A stretch of DNA of 64,000 bases from the NCBI RefSeq assembly GCF_000091325.1, contig NC_014012.1, forward strand, positions 620,001 through 684,000, written 5' to 3'. Position 1 is the stretch's first letter. Every line of letters starts with the position of its first letter. Both the position numbers and the translations under genes were made by a program. The notes under the pieces are model-generated. The model saw only the letters and a program-made list of their open reading frames with translations, did not search any database and was not told the origin of the DNA. Below are positions 22,144 to 32,584 of this stretch, piece after piece. This stretch comes from Shewanella violacea DSS12 (GTDB lineage Bacteria > Pseudomonadota > Gammaproteobacteria > Enterobacterales > Shewanellaceae).

Positions 22144-25100
22144 ATGAAACTTGATCTTATATATACATGCTTTCTCCTGCTAACTCGATGGGTTAGCAGA
22201 TTCATTTCATCGCTACTCTCTGGCGGACATCATCTTTCTAAACTCATTTCGAAACTTGTCTCCCGAGAAGGAGATAATGTCACTCATCTGAGTGGTCTTC
22301 TGTTACTTATCACCTGTTTTCTGGCTGTGCAGCAGGCGAAAGCGGTTGAGCATGAGCTTGAGTCTTTATCAGCTGATATCACTGAAACTGAGCTGATCAT
22401 CATAGATCCAGCGGTTCATGATCCTTACATGCTTTACCAAGCGTTAAACGCCAAGTTTAGACAGCATCTAGGCCAGAACAGTAAAACTCAAATCGTCTTC
22501 CTCAGGCCAGAACTTGAGCCCTTGCAGCAGATACTCATTGCGATCAAAGACAAGCCTAACCTATCTCAGCTATCTATCATTTCCCATGCGTCTAACGGCG
22601 CTATCTTTCTGGCAGGAAAATGGATAGATAAAGATTATATTAATCAGCATAAAGCTATGATGAGTGAGATTGGCTCTAGCCTGAAAAAGGGGGCGGATCT
22701 CAAGTTGTATGGCTGTAATCTAGCTGCTGGCTTATCGGGTAAACGTTTCGTCAACAGGGTGGCTGAGTTAACTCAGCTGGATGTGGCCGCCTCTACCGAT
22801 ACGACTGGTGGAGCAAAGCAAGGCCATAACTGGGAGCTGGAGTATAAGGTGGGGAGCATAAATTCTCGCTCGCTGTTTTCTGAAGCACTGCCCACTTCTT
22901 ACTCCTCCACACTGAATCACTTTCGGTACGGTACCATGGCGGTTGAGCCCATTACTGGGGAGAGTGGCAAGGTAAGGCTCAAGGTGCAGATTGGCTATAC
23001 TTTGAATCACTACATCATGACTCAGTTGGTTAACTCGCCGGTGGGCACGGTAAATTGTCAGATGCCTTACCTACAGAGTTTCTCGTGGGGAGATGGACAA
23101 GGACAGGGAGGTATTTGTGTACAGCTGCTTTCGAAAGACACTGCCACCAATGATGCCCTTGTCGAGGTGGTGAGTATTGGAGCCAATGGCTATGAGCCTG
23201 GCCTAGTGCATCAATATCAAGCAGATGGTAACTACACGCTCTCTTGGTCCTCTTATGCCAGAAGTCCCGCCATGAGCCAGGACAACGCATACTGGCGCGC
23301 AGAGGCAAGTACTTCAGTGGTTAACGGTGAAATTACTAATGCCTCGCCAGTAACCGCGGTATCGGCTCTGGTATATGTCAGAGACGATCACCCCTTTACC
23401 ATGCAAATATCTGGGGTTGATCAAAATGGCGATCAAATACGCTATCGCTGGGGCAAGCAGAAAGAGTTTTACTCGGGTAATAGTAATAATGAGGTAAAAA
23501 AACCTACTGGGATGCAGCTTTCTGCCGAAGGTTTAATTACCTGGGATCTGGCAGCGGATCTGGCTAATGGAGATCTGATTACTTATACCGACAATGCCAA
23601 TCCCAGCACAGTAACCAGTAATCGTTGGCAGGCAGCCATAGTTCTGGAAGATCTGGACATTAATGGTGTGGTAAAGTCTAAGGCGCCATTGGATTTCGTG
23701 TTTATTATCAGCGATCCAGATAATGCCTCGCCAGGTTTCAATCCCGCCCCCGAGATCACCGCAACCCAATATATCCAGCTGCATCAAACAACCACTTTTA
23801 CTATCACGGCGACTGATGTCGATGAGAATGGCGATCCAGATGTACCCAGCATCAGCGTGTTAAACCCGCCTTCCACGGATACGGCAATATGGAGCACCAG
23901 TACCATAAGCCAAGACCCAACAACCGGGACTAGCGTGATTGAAGTGACATTCTCCCCTTCCGATGACATGTTAGGTAAGGCATATGCGGTGATCTTTAGT
24001 GCCAAAGATAGCAATGGCATCACCTCCGAAGCCGCGGTTAACTTAGTTATCGTTAATGAAGCACCGATTGCACAAGATGACTCGGCCTTCACTCAGCAAG
24101 GTCAGATGGTGATAGTCGATGTGTTGGCGAATGATTCAGACCCAGACGGTGATCCCTTAACCATTACTCAGTTCAATGCTCCGAATGGCACTGTGGTGCT
24201 AAATCCAGATAACACCATCTCTTATACGCCGGATGCGAATTTCAGTGGTTTAGAAATTATCTCCTATGTTATTTCTGACGGTATCGGCTCTGTGGCAAGT
24301 GCCAATATCTTAGTCACGGTTAATGGCAAGCCAATTGCTCAAGATGACCTTTTCACTATCAATGAAGATACAAGCTCAGTGCTGGATGTGCTGGCTAACG
24401 ATAGTGAGCCTGACGCTGATACGTTAAATATAACTCTCACATCGGCGAGTTTTGGTCAGCTGAGTCTGGTTAATAACTTGGTCACCTATACACCCAATGG
24501 CCAATTTTATGGAACAGATACATTTAGCTACACCATTAGTGATGGGCTAGGTGGCAGCGATACTGCCAGCGTGACTGTGACTGTGGTGAGTATCAATGAT
24601 CTGCCTGTTGCGAATAATGACTTAGCTGAAATAGATGAAGATCAGAGTATTGCTATTTCAGTACTGGCAAATGATAGCGATCCTGAAAATGATCCTCTGT
24701 CTGTGACTGCTCACCAGTCACTACATGGAACTACATCGGTGAATTTAGACCAGAGCCTAACCTATGTGCCTGCATTAAATTATTTTGGCCCAGATCAGAT
24801 CACTTACACCATTAGCGATGGTAATGGCGGTGAGTCGACGGCTACCGTGGCAGTGACAGTTACGCCTATCAATGATGCGCCCGTTGCAATTGATGATGTG
24901 GCGACACTTGCTGAAGATACCAGTGTGCTTTTGACTCCTCTTAGCAATGATGTGGACGTAGAGGGGGATCTTCTCTCTTATGTTTCTGTTGTGGCTTCCA
25001 GTGGACTGGTGACGGTTAATGCAGATATGAGCGTGCTGTACACCCCAGCAGAAAATTTCCAAGGTAATGTACAGATTAATTATCTTATTTCTGACCCTTC

Positions 25101-28100
25101 AGGCCTGCAGTCTGCCGCCGTGATTTCAGTGAGTGTTACTCAGGTTAACGATGCCCCCAAGGCCAATGCAGATACAGCCTCTGTCGATGAGGACGGTACG
25201 CTTACATATGCTGTGCTAGATAACGATACCGATGTTGAAAATCATGCTTTAACGGTTTCTGTTGCTCAGTCTAGCCATGGTCAAGCCAATGTAGAAGCGA
25301 ATGGCAGCATCACCTATGTACCCGATCCCGACTTCAATGGCAGTGATAGCGTTATCTACACCATAGACGATGGTCATGGGGGACAAGACTCGGCCTTGTT
25401 TAGCGTGACGGTTAATGGCGTCAATGATGAACCTATAGCGGTCGATGACAGTGTCACTCTGGATGAAGACGCGAGTGTTACTGTCCCCGTGCTAGCTAAC
25501 GACAGTGATGTCGATGGCGATAGCTTGACGGTAACCGTGCAATCTTCAGTCAATGGCACGGCGTCAGTTACGGCGCTAGGTTTAGTGCTGTACACGCCGA
25601 ATGCGAATTTCAATGGGGCCGATAGTCTCACGTACACCATTGAGGACGGTAATGGCGGCAGTGCTAGCGCCGTACTCTCTATTTTTGTGAGCAGCGTTAA
25701 TGATCAACCGCTTGCCATGAATGATACGGCGAGTCTAGATGAAGACACCAGTATAAGGGTACATGTGCTGGCAAATGACAGCGATCTCGATAACGACTTG
25801 CTGGTGGTCACGGCTCAATCTGCGAGTCATGGTGATGTCACCGTTGGGCTAGATGGCAGTATTAGCTACATGCCAGAGCAGGACTTTAATGGTGTCGACA
25901 GTGTGACTTATTCAATCGATGACGGTCATGGAGGCACGGCTCAGGCTCTGCTCACTATCACAGTTAATGCCGTTAATGATCTGCCCGTGGCAGTGGATGA
26001 TTATGCCTATGTCACCGAGGATGGCTCTGTGACTTTCTCTGTGTTGAGTAACGACACAGATGTTGATAACGATGTGCTAACCCTAACCTTAAATGCCGCC
26101 AGTAATGGCAGTACAATTAATCATAATGATGGCAGTGTTAGCTATACACCTGATGCCAATTTTAATGGCAGTGATAGCGTTCAATATAGCGTGAGTGATG
26201 GCCAAGGCGGTGAAGCTCAGGCAGTCATTTATCTCAACGTCACAGCGGTCAATGATGCCCCCGTGGCCGAAGTCGATCTTATTAGCATGGAGGAAGATAC
26301 GTCACTGAATTTTGACTTATTACTTAATGACACAGACGTCGAGTTTTCTCTCAACCCTGCTAGTGCCGAGTTGCTAGATCTGCCACAGCATATGAGTGTC
26401 AGAGTGGTAAATGGTGTGGTGACTTTAACGCCCGATGCTGACTTTAATGGCAGTGACAGCCTGACTTATCGAGTATCAGATGGCGAGGGTAAAGCCTCCA
26501 ATATTGCAGTTGTAACCATAGAAGTGGCAGCTGTGAATGATGCGCCGCGGCCCGAGCCAGATTTTGTCAGTGTCGATGAAGATATCACCTCAGACATCGA
26601 AGTTTTGGCCAATGACATAGATATCGATGATAGCGGTGAGTCATCTTTGGATATTCATTCCGTGGTGGTAGTACAAGCGCCGCTTCATGGCCAGTTAACC
26701 AATGTTGACGGTGTCTTAAGTTACCATCCAGATAGTAATTATGTTGGCTCTGACAGTTTCAGTTATACCGTGGCAGACATGATAGGGGCTGTGAGCCAGG
26801 CCAGTCTGGTCACCTTAAACGTGCAAGGCATCAATGATGCCCCCGTTGCTGTGAGCGACAGCTTTACCAGCGATGAGGACCTGGGCATAAGCTTCAATGT
26901 GACCACGAATGACACCGACATAGACTCCCAACTAGCGCCTGAATCGGTGAGCATATTTAGCGCCCCAACTCATGGAGTGGTGAGTATTTCAGCAACGGGA
27001 GAGCTTACTTACACGCCCAATGCCGATTATTTTGGTGATGACAGCTTCAGCTACACGGTCAAGGACGCTGAAGGGGCAGTGTCCTTGCCTGGTACTGTGA
27101 GTGTGAGCCTAGCGTCTATCAACGATGCCCCAAGGCTGGATGATGATATGGCTCAACTCATGGAGGATGGCGTCAATGACATCAATGTGCTGGGTAATGA
27201 CCTAGATATTGATGGTGAGCTCGTTTTAGCTAGCCTGATGGTGACGGTTATGCCGGAGCACGGCACAGTCTCAATATTGGCGAGTGGATTGCTTAGGTAC
27301 ACCCCGGATGATAACTACTATGGAGCGGACAGCTTTAGTTACTCGATTAACGACAATGATGGCGTGACGAGTGAAGCTAATGTTCAAATCACCATAGATA
27401 GCATCAACGATCGACCCATGGCCCAAGATGATGGCGCTGTGCTAGATGAAGATAGCCTAATAACACTCGATATTTTGGCCAATGACACCGACTTAGATGG
27501 AGCCTTAGATGTAAGCAGTGTGATCATCATTAATGCGCCGACCTCAGGAATAGTGGAAGTAAATTCTGATGGCAGCCTGCTTTATATACCAGATGCTAAC
27601 TTCAACGGCAGTGACAGCTTTAGCTACCAAGTCAGCGATGATGGGGGGGGCAGCTCTGAAATTGCATTTGTCAGTTTAGATGTAATCTCAGTCAATGATG
27701 CACCGCAAATTTCGGGGAATGCACCTGAGACTCTCATCGAGGGTGAGTCCTATCAATTCACTCCCTCTAGCCTAGATATCGACAATGATACTTTGATATT
27801 TTCTATCACAGGCTTACCGATATGGGCGAGTTTTGATGGGCTTACTGGAACCTTGAGTGGTATTGCCGCTTATGAAAATGTCGCTAGCTATGGCCCTATG
27901 GTTATTTCAGTGTCTGACGGGGTTATAGAGGTTGAGTTGGAGGCATTCTATATCCAAGTTGAGGTGCTTGATTCTGATGGTGACAGTATCCCAGATACTA
28001 TTGAGATTGAACTAGGCTTAGATCCATTCGATGCCTATGATGCCGGGCAAGATGCCGATGGTGATGGCCTTAGTAACTTGGATGAATGGTTAGGGGGAAG

Positions 28101-30564
28101 CAACCTCTACCTAGATGATGTCGCACCTGAGCTTATTATTCCTGATGATATCTGGATTGATGCCACCGGCTTATTTACAGGTGTGAGCATAGGGCAAGCC
28201 CAAGCCTATGATTATGTCGATGGTGTCAGGCAGATTTGCTGTGAAGACTTAAGTAACACCATGGTAAGTGACCAGCCTGAGTTACCTCCTGGAACACATC
28301 AGGTGACATGGACCGCTGTAGATGCTGCCGGGAATGTCAGTGAGTTAATCCAAAATATCTTTGTGCGTCCGCTCATCTCTCTACCGCAAGATCAAATCGT
28401 CTCTCGGGGTAATCGGGTGTTAGTTTCTGTTTATCTTAACGGGCCATCTCCTGAGTATCCTCTTTCGGTAGCTTACAGCGTGGCTGGCAGTGCCGTTGAA
28501 GGGCTACACCATGATCTCACTAGCGCAGTGGTGACGTTCGAGCCTGGACAAGTCGTGGCAAGGATTGAGTTTACCGCCTTGGATATTGAGGTGGACGCGT
28601 TACAGGATGAGCTGGTGTCCATTCATCTGGATGACCAATTAAATCTTGGCAGTAAGAAAGATCACTACGTCACTATCACCTTAGATAATCTGGCTCCTGA
28701 GGTACAAGTCTCCTCTTACCAATCTGAAGAGTTACGTACCTGGGTTGCACAGGTCAATGGGGTTGTAGAAGTACAGGCCAGCTATAGTGATCCCAATATT
28801 CAAAATAGCCTTACTCTGGATTGGAGTTTGACCGACAGTGAACTACAAGAGGTTCAGCTCCCTGAAGGGCAAGAGGTGATGCAAAAGGTCTCCAGCCTGG
28901 GAGTCAATAATATCAAGTTGCAGACCTGGTTGTTCGACCCCAGTGGATTAGCCGAAGGTGTCTATACCATTAGGGCTAAGGTCACTGATGATGGTGAGCC
29001 TAATTTAAGTCACTTCAGTGAGTTAAGAGTACGAGTATCGGAACATTTACCCCTGCTAACCATGGCTGATACCGATGGCGACGGCATTGCAGATATTGAG
29101 GAGGGCTTAGTCGATTCTGATGGCGATGGTATTCCCGATTACTTAGACCCTATTGTTGCAGCAAACGTGCTACCCGAGAGAATCGTCAATACTGAATCTT
29201 ATTTGGTGGAGTGTGAATCTGGGGTTAAGTGTCGTTTGGGACAATATGCTATGTCTGGTGTGTATATGGGAGCCCAAGTAGCAGGCTCAGATATTCATGC
29301 CAATCTGCAAGGCATCATGCCTGGTGATTTTGTCGATGTGGGTGGTGTATTTAACATAGAGGCACTGGATTTATCCGAGCAAAACCAGGCCGTTAATATC
29401 GTTATTCCACAGCGTAACCCTATTCCTGAGAATGCTGGCTATCGTCACTTCATTCATGATAAAGGCTGGTTTATATTTTCAGTTAATGCGGATAACCAAC
29501 TAATGTCGGCACCAGGCGCCGCAGGTTATTGTCCTCCACCTGGCTCTGATGAGTATACAGATGGGCTCAATCAAGGGGATTGGTGCCTACAGCTTGTGAT
29601 TAAGGATGGCGGTATCAATGATGCCGATGAAATGGTGAATGGTGCGGTCAATATTACCGGCTGCTTGATCCAAGAGGAGCTAGTACAGCCCGGTAGTGAA
29701 ACTGTCGAGGTGGAAATTTTAACTGAGGGAGGTGGTGCCTCATCTGGAGCTAGTATGCAAATCTTCATCTTGTACCTATTGGCTATTATTGCCTTCTTTA
29801 GAAATGGCTTCTTGAGAAATGGATTGTTTAGAAACGGACTGTTTAGAAATGGACTGTTAAACAATAGACGGCTTAAAAGTCTACGCCATAGATGCCAAGT
29901 TCACCGTTTATCATTATTAGTCACTATTATTTTTGTTTCACTGACGACTCAGGTCAAAGCCGATTCCGCCCCGCAAGTGATACCTGAAGATGTAAGCCAG
30001 ACTGGCTTCTTTATTTCTGGGCTCTTTGCTCGGTCTCAGGGCTCGGATAACACGGGGGATATCAACCAATTTCTAGTGGATGCTGGATTAAATGCTCAAG
30101 TGTTCGAAATAGATGATTCGACTTCTGGGTGGAAACTCGGTGCCGGTTATGCCTTTACACCAAGCTGGTCTGTGGCTCTGGAATATATAGATCTAGGGGA
30201 GGTGAGCGTAAGAATAAAAGGAGTGACGGACGACCCTGAGGCTTTTTATGCTACAGCGAGCCAGTTTCATCCGGACTCAGCAAAGGGGCTAGGATTGAAC
30301 CTGGGCTATCGCTATCAATTTATAACCGATGTAAGCGCCTTACTTCATCTAGGCCTGTTTCATTGGCAAGCCGACTTCACCTCTTATGATATAGATACTC
30401 AGCAGGTAGCGACCAGCGAAGATGATGGTAATTCATTGTATGGAGGGATAGGTGTTGAGTACGCATTAACGCAAAATATCCGTTTCTCAGTGCAATGGAG
30501 TCATTTTAGTTTAGATGAGCAGAGCCGTGATTTGATTGGTGTTGGAGTTCAATATCAGTTTTAG
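22144..30564 (+). CDS. Giant DUF4347/cadherin-repeat GlyGly-CTERM surface protein fused in frame to an outer-membrane beta-barrel
   Basis: 2806 aa. Order: long signal peptide (about 1-67, cut near QQAKA); DUF4347 (about 75-250, with KLYGCNLAAG and DVAAST); unassigned segments to ~637; 13 tandem VCBS/cadherin-like domains of ~93 aa (about 638-1850, each starting NDxPxA.DD....DED and holding VLANDxD and YTPxxNFNGxDS); a dystroglycan-type cadherin unit; DSDGD calcium-type repeats (~1943 and ~2309); HYR and Calx-beta-like segments; a choice-of-anchor-U-like domain (~2339-2516); GGGASSG plus a membrane helix and Arg-rich run (~2528-2575), a GlyGly-CTERM signal. Then a second signal peptide (cut near QVKA) and a ~200-aa barrel ending VGVQYQF. 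Probably a surface adhesin processed by rhombosortase; the fusion is unusual. Confidence 0.85.
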   Translation: MKLDLIYTCFLLLTRWVSRFISSLLSGGHHLSKLISKLVSREGDNVTHLSGLLLLITCFLAVQQAKAVEHELESLSADITETELIIIDPAVHDPYMLYQALNAKFRQHLGQNSKTQIVFLRPELEPLQQILIAIKDKPNLSQLSIISHASNGAIFLAGKWIDKDYINQHKAMMSEIGSSLKKGADLKLYGCNLAAGLSGKRFVNRVAELTQLDVAASTDTTGGAKQGHNWELEYKVGSINSRSLFSEALPTSYSSTLNHFRYGTMAVEPITGESGKVRLKVQIGYTLNHYIMTQLVNSPVGTVNCQMPYLQSFSWGDGQGQGGICVQLLSKDTATNDALVEVVSIGANGYEPGLVHQYQADGNYTLSWSSYARSPAMSQDNAYWRAEASTSVVNGEITNASPVTAVSALVYVRDDHPFTMQISGVDQNGDQIRYRWGKQKEFYSGNSNNEVKKPTGMQLSAEGLITWDLAADLANGDLITYTDNANPSTVTSNRWQAAIVLEDLDINGVVKSKAPLDFVFIISDPDNASPGFNPAPEITATQYIQLHQTTTFTITATDVDENGDPDVPSISVLNPPSTDTAIWSTSTISQDPTTGTSVIEVTFSPSDDMLGKAYAVIFSAKDSNGITSEAAVNLVIVNEAPIAQDDSAFTQQGQMVIVDVLANDSDPDGDPLTITQFNAPNGTVVLNPDNTISYTPDANFSGLEIISYVISDGIGSVASANILVTVNGKPIAQDDLFTINEDTSSVLDVLANDSEPDADTLNITLTSASFGQLSLVNNLVTYTPNGQFYGTDTFSYTISDGLGGSDTASVTVTVVSINDLPVANNDLAEIDEDQSIAISVLANDSDPENDPLSVTAHQSLHGTTSVNLDQSLTYVPALNYFGPDQITYTISDGNGGESTATVAVTVTPINDAPVAIDDVATLAEDTSVLLTPLSNDVDVEGDLLSYVSVVASSGLVTVNADMSVLYTPAENFQGNVQINYLISDPSGLQSAAVISVSVTQVNDAPKANADTASVDEDGTLTYAVLDNDTDVENHALTVSVAQSSHGQANVEANGSITYVPDPDFNGSDSVIYTIDDGHGGQDSALFSVTVNGVNDEPIAVDDSVTLDEDASVTVPVLANDSDVDGDSLTVTVQSSVNGTASVTALGLVLYTPNANFNGADSLTYTIEDGNGGSASAVLSIFVSSVNDQPLAMNDTASLDEDTSIRVHVLANDSDLDNDLLVVTAQSASHGDVTVGLDGSISYMPEQDFNGVDSVTYSIDDGHGGTAQALLTITVNAVNDLPVAVDDYAYVTEDGSVTFSVLSNDTDVDNDVLTLTLNAASNGSTINHNDGSVSYTPDANFNGSDSVQYSVSDGQGGEAQAVIYLNVTAVNDAPVAEVDLISMEEDTSLNFDLLLNDTDVEFSLNPASAELLDLPQHMSVRVVNGVVTLTPDADFNGSDSLTYRVSDGEGKASNIAVVTIEVAAVNDAPRPEPDFVSVDEDITSDIEVLANDIDIDDSGESSLDIHSVVVVQAPLHGQLTNVDGVLSYHPDSNYVGSDSFSYTVADMIGAVSQASLVTLNVQGINDAPVAVSDSFTSDEDLGISFNVTTNDTDIDSQLAPESVSIFSAPTHGVVSISATGELTYTPNADYFGDDSFSYTVKDAEGAVSLPGTVSVSLASINDAPRLDDDMAQLMEDGVNDINVLGNDLDIDGELVLASLMVTVMPEHGTVSILASGLLRYTPDDNYYGADSFSYSINDNDGVTSEANVQITIDSINDRPMAQDDGAVLDEDSLITLDILANDTDLDGALDVSSVIIINAPTSGIVEVNSDGSLLYIPDANFNGSDSFSYQVSDDGGGSSEIAFVSLDVISVNDAPQISGNAPETLIEGESYQFTPSSLDIDNDTLIFSITGLPIWASFDGLTGTLSGIAAYENVASYGPMVISVSDGVIEVELEAFYIQVEVLDSDGDSIPDTIEIELGLDPFDAYDAGQDADGDGLSNLDEWLGGSNLYLDDVAPELIIPDDIWIDATGLFTGVSIGQAQAYDYVDGVRQICCEDLSNTMVSDQPELPPGTHQVTWTAVDAAGNVSELIQNIFVRPLISLPQDQIVSRGNRVLVSVYLNGPSPEYPLSVAYSVAGSAVEGLHHDLTSAVVTFEPGQVVARIEFTALDIEVDALQDELVSIHLDDQLNLGSKKDHYVTITLDNLAPEVQVSSYQSEELRTWVAQVNGVVEVQASYSDPNIQNSLTLDWSLTDSELQEVQLPEGQEVMQKVSSLGVNNIKLQTWLFDPSGLAEGVYTIRAKVTDDGEPNLSHFSELRVRVSEHLPLLTMADTDGDGIADIEEGLVDSDGDGIPDYLDPIVAANVLPERIVNTESYLVECESGVKCRLGQYAMSGVYMGAQVAGSDIHANLQGIMPGDFVDVGGVFNIEALDLSEQNQAVNIVIPQRNPIPENAGYRHFIHDKGWFIFSVNADNQLMSAPGAAGYCPPPGSDEYTDGLNQGDWCLQLVIKDGGINDADEMVNGAVNITGCLIQEELVQPGSETVEVEILTEGGGASSGASMQIFILYLLAIIAFFRNGFLRNGLFRNGLFRNGLLNNRRLKSLRHRCQVHRLSLLVTIIFVSLTTQVKADSAPQVIPEDVSQTGFFISGLFARSQGSDNTGDINQFLVDAGLNAQVFEIDDSTSGWKLGAGYAFTPSWSVALEYIDLGEVSVRIKGVTDDPEAFYATASQFHPDSAKGLGLNLGYRYQFITDVSALLHLGLFHWQADFTSYDIDTQQVATSEDDGNSLYGGIGVEYALTQNIRFSVQWSHFSLDEQSRDLIGVGVQYQF
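29794..29868 (+). repeat. Five 15-bp tandem repeats coding (F/L)(F/L)RNG
   Basis: Units begin at 29794, 29809, 29824, 29839 and 29854, and encode FFRNG, FLRNG, LFRNG, LFRNG and the diverged LLNNR. They lie directly after the GlyGly-CTERM membrane helix and form the seam to the following signal peptide and barrel. Unit length is a multiple of three, so copy changes keep the frame. Confidence 0.88.
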
Positions 30565-30724: not shown

Positions 30725-30766
30725 TTTATTAGGTGAGTAGATAACAAGATAAAATTGGAGTTGGCT

Positions 30767-31522
30767 ATGAAACCTTTATTCTGTCACTTAGGCAGAGGCT
30801 GGGTTCCCTCTGGTATACAGACAGTGTCTGATTTGTTTGGTCAATTAGTGACCCAAGTTAGCAGACGAGTATCGTATTCGCGTTTTCTAACCATCAAAGA
30901 TATTAAGTTCTTCAATTGTGCGGGGATAGTGCTAGCTAGCTTGTTAGTGAGTCCCCTAGCACATGCAGAGCTGACAATGCAGGTCCAAGTTAGTAGGGAA
31001 CTGATCATCATGGATCTGTCGGTTCATGACCCCAAAATGCTGGTGGAAGCACTCAATACTAAGTTTAAACAGCATGCTGGTCATGCTAATAACACTAAAA
31101 TATTTTTCCTTAAGCCCAATAAGGAGCCCCTGTTACAAATAAAGAATGCCATAGAGGCTACAGCAAATATTTCACATGTTTCCATAGTGTCCCATGCATC
31201 CAACGGTGCGCTGTTCCTGTCTGAAAGGTGGGTTGATAAAGAGTATATTTCGGCTAGAAAAACCTTGATGCTGGAGATTGGTGACTTATTGCAATCAGGC
31301 ACAGACCTTAATTTGTATGGATGTAATCAAGCTTCTGGACGCTTAGAAAGGAGCTTTGTCGATATATTAGCTAAATTGACTTCCTTAGACGTTGCAGCTT
31401 CTATAGATATAACCGGTGAGCTGAGTGAGGGGCGTAATTGGGAGCTGGGATATCGAGTGAGAGATATGGAGGTCGCGTCTCAATTTAATATAGGGATGAC
31501 TAAATCTGTCCATCAGCCATAG
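30767..31522 (+). CDS. Short DUF4347 protein, paralogue of the giant protein's N-terminus
   Basis: About 251 aa. The start MKPLFCHLGRGW is supported by GGAG six bases upstream. A long N-terminal signal region ends near SPLAHAE (about residue 70). The DUF4347 domain follows: SIVSHASNGALFLSERWVD, LNLYGCNQASG and LDVAASIDITGE align with the giant protein's SIISHASNGAIFLAGKWID, KLYGCNLAAG and DVAASTDTTGG. It stops soon after the domain: no cadherin repeats, no anchor. Either a free DUF4347 protein or a relic of a longer gene. It has its own sigma-54 promoter and RBS, so it is probably expressed. Confidence 0.8.
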   Translation: MKPLFCHLGRGWVPSGIQTVSDLFGQLVTQVSRRVSYSRFLTIKDIKFFNCAGIVLASLLVSPLAHAELTMQVQVSRELIIMDLSVHDPKMLVEALNTKFKQHAGHANNTKIFFLKPNKEPLLQIKNAIEATANISHVSIVSHASNGALFLSERWVDKEYISARKTLMLEIGDLLQSGTDLNLYGCNQASGRLERSFVDILAKLTSLDVAASIDITGELSEGRNWELGYRVRDMEVASQFNIGMTKSVHQP

Positions 31523-31729: not shown

Positions 31730-31765
31730 TAGTATTTCTTAAGGCATGTGATTTTGAGGTGCATT

Positions 31766-32584
31766 ATGAAATTGGCAGTTTCGAGAATGAATAGTAATAA
31801 TAAGTTGGCTCGAGGTCTGCCTGTACTGAGTCTTATCAGTACAGGTGAAAGGTTACATTCCAGGGCTCTTCCCCCAAAAAAAGATATCAGAAACAAGAGA
31901 AAAAAATCCAGATCTACTTTTCCTTATGCCTGGATTGGGATCTTATGTTGCCTCTTCATCGTACAGGCGAGCGTTGCTGGAGAAGCCGATAACATGGATT
32001 TAGAAAGTGATTTTTTCGATGTTTATGACTATCAATATATGGCGGAGATAAGTCAGTCAGATATCCCATTAAGCCCAAACCAACAGAGGAGCTTGAGATT
32101 TAACCTCAAGCTCAATTCTAGTGGGAATTTATTAGAGCTGGAGTACCATTTTAGTCCTGCTTGGCAAGTGTCTTTCGAATCTCTGCAGCTAGGTGCAGGG
32201 GTATTTCCCGGCGCTAATGTATATCATTCTAACCAGGGTTATCTTAATTTTGATAGATATAACGATTCGACGGGCTTATATGCTTCTAGTCTATATGGCC
32301 TTAGATTATATGAAGCTTGGGGGGCGAGTGTGAGCCGTATATTTGAGTTAACCGATAAACTCTCCACTCAAGTCTATCTTGGTGCTTACCATTGGCAGCA
32401 AGAAGAGCTCGTTTTTTCAGCAATAGATAAACATGCTTCTTCGAAGGGAGTATCCCCCTATGGAGGGCTTGGTGTCAGGTACCGTTTGTCGGATGAAGTG
32501 AACCTTAGACTGGATTGGGATCATTTTAGTCTACAGGGAGATACTTATGATCAAGTTGGGATCAAGTTTCAATATCAGTTTTAA
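31766..32584 (+). CDS. Outer-membrane beta-barrel protein, paralogue of the giant protein's C-terminus
   Basis: About 272 aa. The start MKLAVSRMNS has GAGGTG five bases upstream. A basic N-terminal region of ~50 residues precedes the hydrophobic signal (WIGILCCLFIVQASVAGE). The rest is a small barrel with alternating strands, ending with the outer-membrane motif KFQYQF. It aligns with the giant protein's last ~200 residues: YLGAYHWQ versus LGLFHWQ, YGGLGVRYRLS versus YGGIGVEYALT, HFSL in both. So this locus has the barrel as its own gene where the neighbour has it fused. Exact role unknown; OmpW/OmpA-like small barrels are the nearest type. Confidence 0.78.
   Translation: MKLAVSRMNSNNKLARGLPVLSLISTGERLHSRALPPKKDIRNKRKKSRSTFPYAWIGILCCLFIVQASVAGEADNMDLESDFFDVYDYQYMAEISQSDIPLSPNQQRSLRFNLKLNSSGNLLELEYHFSPAWQVSFESLQLGAGVFPGANVYHSNQGYLNFDRYNDSTGLYASSLYGLRLYEAWGASVSRIFELTDKLSTQVYLGAYHWQQEELVFSAIDKHASSKGVSPYGGLGVRYRLSDEVNLRLDWDHFSLQGDTYDQVGIKFQYQF

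Follow-up and report, generated by a model that had tools for sequence, protein, structure and literature searches.

Protein-sorting tags of the LPXTG, PEP-CTERM and GlyGly-CTERM types have been sought and defined at protein C-termini. The GlyGly-CTERM tag stands at the extreme C-terminus, with no other helix between it and the signal peptide, according to the 2011 paper (PMC3237569). For VesB of V. cholerae, PMC6219818 and PMC11389362 report that the chain is cleaved behind its second Gly, receives a modification of the glycerophosphoethanolamine type and leaves by type II secretion; a further source (PMC13393428) states that secretion is directed by an Ig fold in combination with the tag. 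Here we describe an open reading frame (ORF) of Shewanella violacea DSS12 in which a tag of this type lies mid-chain with a signal-peptide-like segment right behind it, an arrangement that recurs across many genera. The ORF occupies positions 22144..30564 (+ strand) of a 64,000-nucleotide stretch of contig NC_014012.1 (positions 620,001 to 684,000, hereafter the window) and encodes in a single frame of 2806 aa an adhesin, a GlyGly-like tag, a second signal peptide and an OmpA-type barrel. The best explanation (probability about 0.77) is that it specifies an envelope polyprotein, which would be cut by rhombosortase at the internal tag and by signal peptidase I at the internal signal to yield an adhesin and an outer-membrane protein (OMP). 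We infer both cleavages, the topology and the fate of the products from the sequence. A literature search, with most subscription papers and supplements outside its reach, returned no report of a fused or internal GlyGly-CTERM tag followed by another protein.

All parts of the ORF lie on the + strand, and its residues are numbered from the ATG. The N-terminal region (22144..22344), recognized by eye, is a long signal-peptide-like sequence with a putative cleavage site at its end, AVQQAKA. It precedes a DUF4347 domain (residues 84–257, 22393..22914; PF14252, E-value 2e-43) and a passenger (22915..29727) composed, according to the profile matches, of tandem bacterial-Ig/cadherin-like repeats of the Big_9 kind (13 matched stretches) and a C-terminal adhesin part; its Ig-like repeats recall the Ig fold of PMC13393428. 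The internal GlyGly-CTERM-like motif and the first membrane helix, GGGASSGAS-MQIFILYLLAIIAFF (29728..29799), comprise a GGG at residues 2529–2531 and a helix reaching Arg2553. The long basic loop that follows (29800..29916), which probably lies on the cytosolic side and would also serve as the n-region of the second signal peptide, contains FRNGL-like units encoded by 4.1 copies of a 15-bp tandem repeat (29797..29858). From residue 2592 there is a second hydrophobic core with a site of the signal peptidase I type, VKA/DSAP (29917..29961), so that the pattern of a positive n-region, a hydrophobic core and small residues at −3/−1 is present, and cleavage is predicted before Asp2607 (nt 29962). 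The remainder (29962..30561) is an outer-membrane barrel of the OmpA type ending in QYQF (OMP_b-brl at residues 2647–2806); the piece 29878–30561 scored 52.0 bits with PF13505 (gathering threshold 28.7) and 32.7 bits with PF01389 (gathering threshold 21). The AlphaFold2 model of the piece 29707–30561 has helices at 17–32 and 60–80 followed by a confident barrel with an 8-stranded OmpA-like fold. Frame, profiles and model together confirm the first-pass annotation, made from the letters alone, in its claim that the 2806-codon ORF runs past the tail into a second signal-like segment and a barrel.

In the proposed mechanism, the N-terminal signal peptide would send the adhesin through Sec until the GlyGly-type segment halts transfer with its basic end toward the cytosol, and the next hydrophobic segment, acting as an internal signal peptide, would restart translocation. 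Rhombosortase could cleave the Gly motif, in the window copy expectedly near SSGAS, and release the adhesin, which would then be modified and carried to the surface by type II secretion, by analogy with VesB, and signal peptidase I could cleave the AxA-type site and free the OmpA-like barrel for insertion by the BAM machinery. The outcome would be two proteins from one translation event, with a short helical hairpin left over.

The in-frame fusion is widespread. A search for relatives covered 60 genomes, and barrel-only scans covered the genus (129 genomes) and the order (394 genomes); genomes and loci are cited below by our own G and L numbers. The frame is open also in the nearest relatives found in the 60-genome search, G003 (85% identical, 2802 aa) and G010 (60% identical, 3466 aa), and barrels within frames of 1000–4700 aa are common in both scans. 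With a fused frame defined as one that extends upstream of the barrel by 350 aa or more, the Gly motif playing no part in the collection, the order contains at least 82 fused frames: at least 55 loci in at least 45 of the 129 same-genus genomes, and at least 27 elsewhere in the family or order. The junction table from which these counts derive includes, for the genus, the listed matches above 100 bits except two 85-aa fragments in G131, plus some weaker ones (the list reached about 45 bits); five weaker matches from the order outside the genus were left out (G157:C1:3119518, G163, G168, G220:C422, G310:C67). Among the named genomes with the fused form are Shewanella sp. ANA-3, S. xiamenensis, S. 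decolorationis S12 and five Rheinheimera records; a scan of named genomes with the window protein as query gave no match.

The anatomy of the junction is conserved. GG or SGS, a helix of 11–21 residues and R/K precede the barrel in all 82 fused frames (81 parsed automatically, L106 by eye), and K/R exceed D/E in the loop of all 81 parsed junctions. The second hydrophobic core reaches at least 2.0 on the Kyte-Doolittle scale in 78/81 (the exceptions are L035 with 1.83, L118 with 1.46, and L122). Ala occupies position −1 in 80/81 linkers and AxA is found in 53/81, as chosen by a site picker written to prefer Ala (the pick for L083 is doubtful). Linker length takes 25 different values between 29 and 75 residues. 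In an alignment of 53 selected rows, which excludes nine odd or divergent ones (L050, L074, L122–L125, L140, L141, L143), L071, L106 and any row more than 92% identical to another, both Gly columns are kept in at least 90%, and TIGR03501 matches 25 of these 53 at E<1 (best 5.9e-5).

The same pair also occurs as two genes. At least 13 loci have the adhesin and the OMP as separate neighbours, some in the genus (L094 with two copies, L095, L096, L097, L098) and others elsewhere (L112, L115, L117, L121, L131, L133, L139). The split adhesin ends with GG/SGS, a helix and a basic cluster followed by a stop, and the split OMP has its own signal-like start. Stop and start overlap in 10/13 pairs (the start is uncertain in L121, yet its first two ATGs both overlap); in the others the gap is 1 nt (L115), 7 nt (L098) or 22 nt (L097). 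The barrel tree, a quick one with SH-aLRT support only and with long branches flagged, had 96 rows (81 fused, 13 split, 2 orphan), without L092 (a broken gene), L071 (its barrel cut at the contig end) and unfused barrels below 100 bits. It requires six changes between fused and split, of which branches with starred support force five for the label split; L050, one fused row from the window's own genome, groups with split rows. Clustering at 60% identity gave 37 fused-only, 7 split-only, 1 mixed and 2 orphan clusters. Because the pair moves between one ORF and two, two proteins are most simply the result in both cases, and the existence of split pairs thereby argues for two final products. The comparison of fused and split forms in other genomes had been proposed in the first-pass annotation as a check, with separate genes in close relatives as the damaging outcome; the nearest relatives proved to have the fused form, and the 13 split pairs belong to more remote homologues.

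The machinery expected for the first cut is present. The window's genome encodes a rhombosortase (178.5 bits, cut-off 84) containing the stretch SGMLH, which PMC3237569 assigns to the active site, as well as a type II secretin (526 bits, cut-off 351). A rhombosortase above the cut-off was found in 44/47 genomes of the order with the barrel (E≤1e-15) as compared with 187/347 others (Fisher p 2e-8, calculated over related genomes that are not independent, and with some of the 47 having stand-alone barrels only). Outside the order, rhombosortase is present in 8/8 genomes with tagged fusions (G564, G569, G620, G623, G658, G660, G767, G799). In G799 it (138 bits, cut-off 84) begins 41 nt after the fused gene on the same strand, the latter encoding a lectin-like, tagged and barrel-bearing product of 691 aa. 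In G778, the gene of a tagged Ig/FG-GAP protein runs into the start of a rhombosortase gene, beyond which the opposite strand has an OmpA-like barrel gene.

Of the 28 matches outside the order, 20 were examined and their junctions read by eye. The tag, the second hydrophobic segment and the barrel occur together in 8/20 loci (L170–L173, L178, L180–L182), the pair is split in 3/20 (L179, L186, L187), and 6/20 are stand-alone or unclear (L176, L177, L183–L185, L188; L176 is the barrel gene of G778). In L169, L174 (at a contig end) and L175 the barrel directly follows Ig-like repeats, with no tag, helix or signal. The idea that genomes with such direct fusions have no rhombosortase was rejected, being true for G593 and false for G850 and G552.

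These direct fusions are one of several observations that weigh against the polyprotein interpretation, the others concerning the tag of the window copy, the distribution of rhombosortase and the linker itself. TIGR03501 matched neither the full window protein (E≤0.1) nor its C-terminal pieces (E≤1), and a search of its own genome with this model found nothing at the fused gene and only two places at E≤0.001, both of them ordinary C-terminal tags, ending in RRRKR and RRRKH. The motif SSGAS departs from the Gly-Gly of the relatives (SSGGS/SSGGA in the close ones), and the tag is followed by more than 250 residues instead of standing at the extreme C-terminus. The order of Gly-rich motif, membrane helix and basic cluster is nevertheless present (GGGASSGAS). 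The GlyGly-CTERM-like tail of the first-pass annotation is therefore borne out for the Gly motif, helix and basic stretch, and falls short in its SSGAS variant and in the TIGR03501 result; the window tag probably works like a GlyGly-CTERM and is not a standard member of TIGR03501. The Ala of SSGAS could be tolerated, given the preference of the V. cholerae rhombosortase for small residues at both cut positions, described in PMC11389362. Three genomes with the barrel have no rhombosortase above the cut-off: G225, whose barrel is not linked to a tag, G284 (80% complete) with one fused gene, and G227 (99% complete) with two. The degenerate motif of the window copy and G003, together with G227, would suit a single cut, in which signal peptidase frees the barrel and the adhesin, with the hairpin still attached, stays behind in the inner membrane; this applies above all to the SSGAS copy of the window. 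We regard this as the least credible of the biological alternatives, given the retention of Gly-Gly among the selected members and the rhombosortase gene adjoining the fused gene of G799. Little more credence is due to a single uncleaved protein, in which the barrel would be a covalent outer-membrane anchor of the adhesin, as in autotransporters. The direct fusions keep this rival alive, as well as suggesting that adhesin and barrel belong together functionally, and the autotransporter-barrel model TIGR01414 gave borderline scores (16.3 bits with the barrel alone, 15.7 and 15.8 in other searches, cut-off 16). Against an anchor stand the membrane helix, the basic loop and the second hydrophobic segment, which are conserved between the two parts of the fused form (L122 is without a separate second segment, another point against the polyprotein), the existence of split genes, and the resemblance of the barrel model to 8-stranded OmpA.

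An internal translation start in the linker, which would give the barrel as a polypeptide of its own and make the long read-through incidental, is likewise improbable, if the least so of the rivals. The first-pass annotation was wrong to exclude an in-frame ATG/GTG/TTG between tail and barrel, as TTG codons are present after the first helix at 29812 and 29824; within the helix there are ATG 29755, TTG 29770 and TTG 29779, and of these five codons only ATG 29755 has a Shine-Dalgarno (SD)-like stretch. Past the helix, ATG/GTG/TTG is found in 70/81 linkers (ATG in 35), 14 of them with an SD-like stretch, and in L036, for example, the placement is such that a canonical signal peptide would follow; this too counts against two cuts in one chain. 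In the ANA-3-like group, the loop and second core have a mean dS of 0.29, as compared with 0.59 for the preceding repeat and 0.72 for the barrel (a short segment, with 20/28 pairs usable), and such low synonymous divergence in one group leaves some room for an internal start. On the other hand, 11/81 linkers have no candidate codon past the helix, the candidate positions are not conserved (by eye), and 14/81 linkers with an SD-like stretch contrast with 10/13 split OMP genes having the same pattern at the first ATG. A scan of the junction for promoters and terminators stayed at the level of chance (3 promoter-like stretches against 2.1 expected, 1 terminator-like against 1.1). The linker dN/dS, calculated for 11 groups after dropping pairs without a usable dS (25/28 and 13/21 linker pairs kept), had medians of 0.12 and 0.19 in two multi-sequence groups and values of 0.00–0.43 in nine pairs; in most groups it exceeds that of the barrel and the repeats, again unfavourably for the polyprotein, and it stays below 1, as would be expected for membrane helices under selection. 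A stop codon lost between two genes, or an error in sequencing, is an idea for which nothing in the window speaks and which only the split neighbours in other genomes could bring to mind; it is refuted by the frame being open in the orthologues of G003 and G010 and in another 79 fused frames. The polyprotein proposed in the first-pass annotation is supported in part, by the tag, signal and barrel conserved in the order and beyond, by the interconversion of fused and split forms and by the adjacent rhombosortase, and loses the argument from missing start codons. The processing itself, equal amounts of both products and a barrel that anchors or displays the adhesin, also put forward there, are still suggestions.

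If the cuts are real, this would be a recurrent bacterial secretory polyprotein and a natural coupling of the amounts of two envelope proteins. Because the layout names a candidate outer-membrane partner, it may also provide a handle on the route by which GlyGly-CTERM proteins arrive at the surface and are kept there. Or perhaps there is a wide class of such polyproteins, in which one translation event gives a rhombosortase-tagged adhesin and a dedicated outer-membrane partner, the barrel receiving, retaining or helping to export the adhesin, with direct fusion, polyprotein and split genes as versions of one two-part surface-display device? We put this forward tentatively and consider it rather less probable than its opposite. 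In databases, such genes may be annotated as a single huge protein with an OMP domain.

Several loci depart from the common form. In G035, the linker-barrel cassettes of L041, L042 and L062 are identical or almost so and lie in frames of 1131, 2657 and 1961 aa, suggesting a possible cassette exchange. An OmpA/Pal-like domain follows the fused barrel in L033 and L034, i.e. a whole OmpA-like protein stands behind the tag, and L065 extends about 170 residues past the barrel. The adhesin-barrel gene L092 (G149) is apparently broken into three overlapping frames. As judged by eye, genes resembling gspM/gspN of type II secretion lie upstream of the fused gene L046 and of the barrel remnant L075, and a small phage tail-collar/microcystin-dependent-like protein (MSDPFIGEIRMF) is encoded upstream of the fused genes L035, L036, L037, L040, L044, L046 and L059. 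The window's genome has a second fused adhesin-barrel, L050 (14522–16012; C1:2258556–2259164), in a frame of 4116 aa, where a long repetitive insert of SIEPIETEAWYTS units separates the signal site from the barrel.

Downstream of the fused ORF, two separate genes on the same (+) strand look like the adhesin-barrel unit minus its middle. One (30755..31522) encodes nothing but a DUF4347 domain, which over 170 residues is 52% identical to that of the adhesin, and the other (31748..32584) a divergent OmpA-like barrel protein that has a signal-like N-terminus of its own (27% identity over 164 columns to the fused barrel). Both DUF4347 proteins have unusually long signal-like N-termini of about 67–71 residues (22144–22344 and 30755–30967). 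Comparable stand-alone divergent barrels are found in G003, G010, G011, G014, G067, G073, G083, G127 and G130.

Among known systems, the NCBIfam family TIGR04219 (OMP_w_GlyGly) was considered as a prior description and rejected, its 37 matches in 36/40 genomes being unfused frames of 217–329 aa (judged by the matches only). FbcH of Bradyrhizobium, the cytochrome b/c1 precursor, is a polyprotein of bacteria reportedly cleaved at a signal peptide within the chain; it differs in comprising respiratory proteins, with neither a rhombosortase tag nor an outer-membrane product. Autotransporters (type V secretion) likewise combine within one ORF a large adhesin and, C-terminal to it, a barrel, but the barrel of the fused ORF is modelled with 8 strands, unlike the 12-stranded translocator of type Va, a helix pair intervenes, and two-gene forms exist. 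In sequence and model the barrel matches the transmembrane domain of OmpA and the 8-stranded barrels of PF13505 and PF01389, from which it differs in having its signal peptide inside another protein; the window copy ends with the barrel, unlike L033 and L034. With substrates of rhombosortase such as VesB the fused ORF shares a passenger, here presumably secreted, that is followed by a Gly-rich motif, a helix and a basic cluster, and the presence of a rhombosortase and a type II secretin in the genome; here, in contrast, the tag is internal and continues in frame into a signal-like segment and a second protein.

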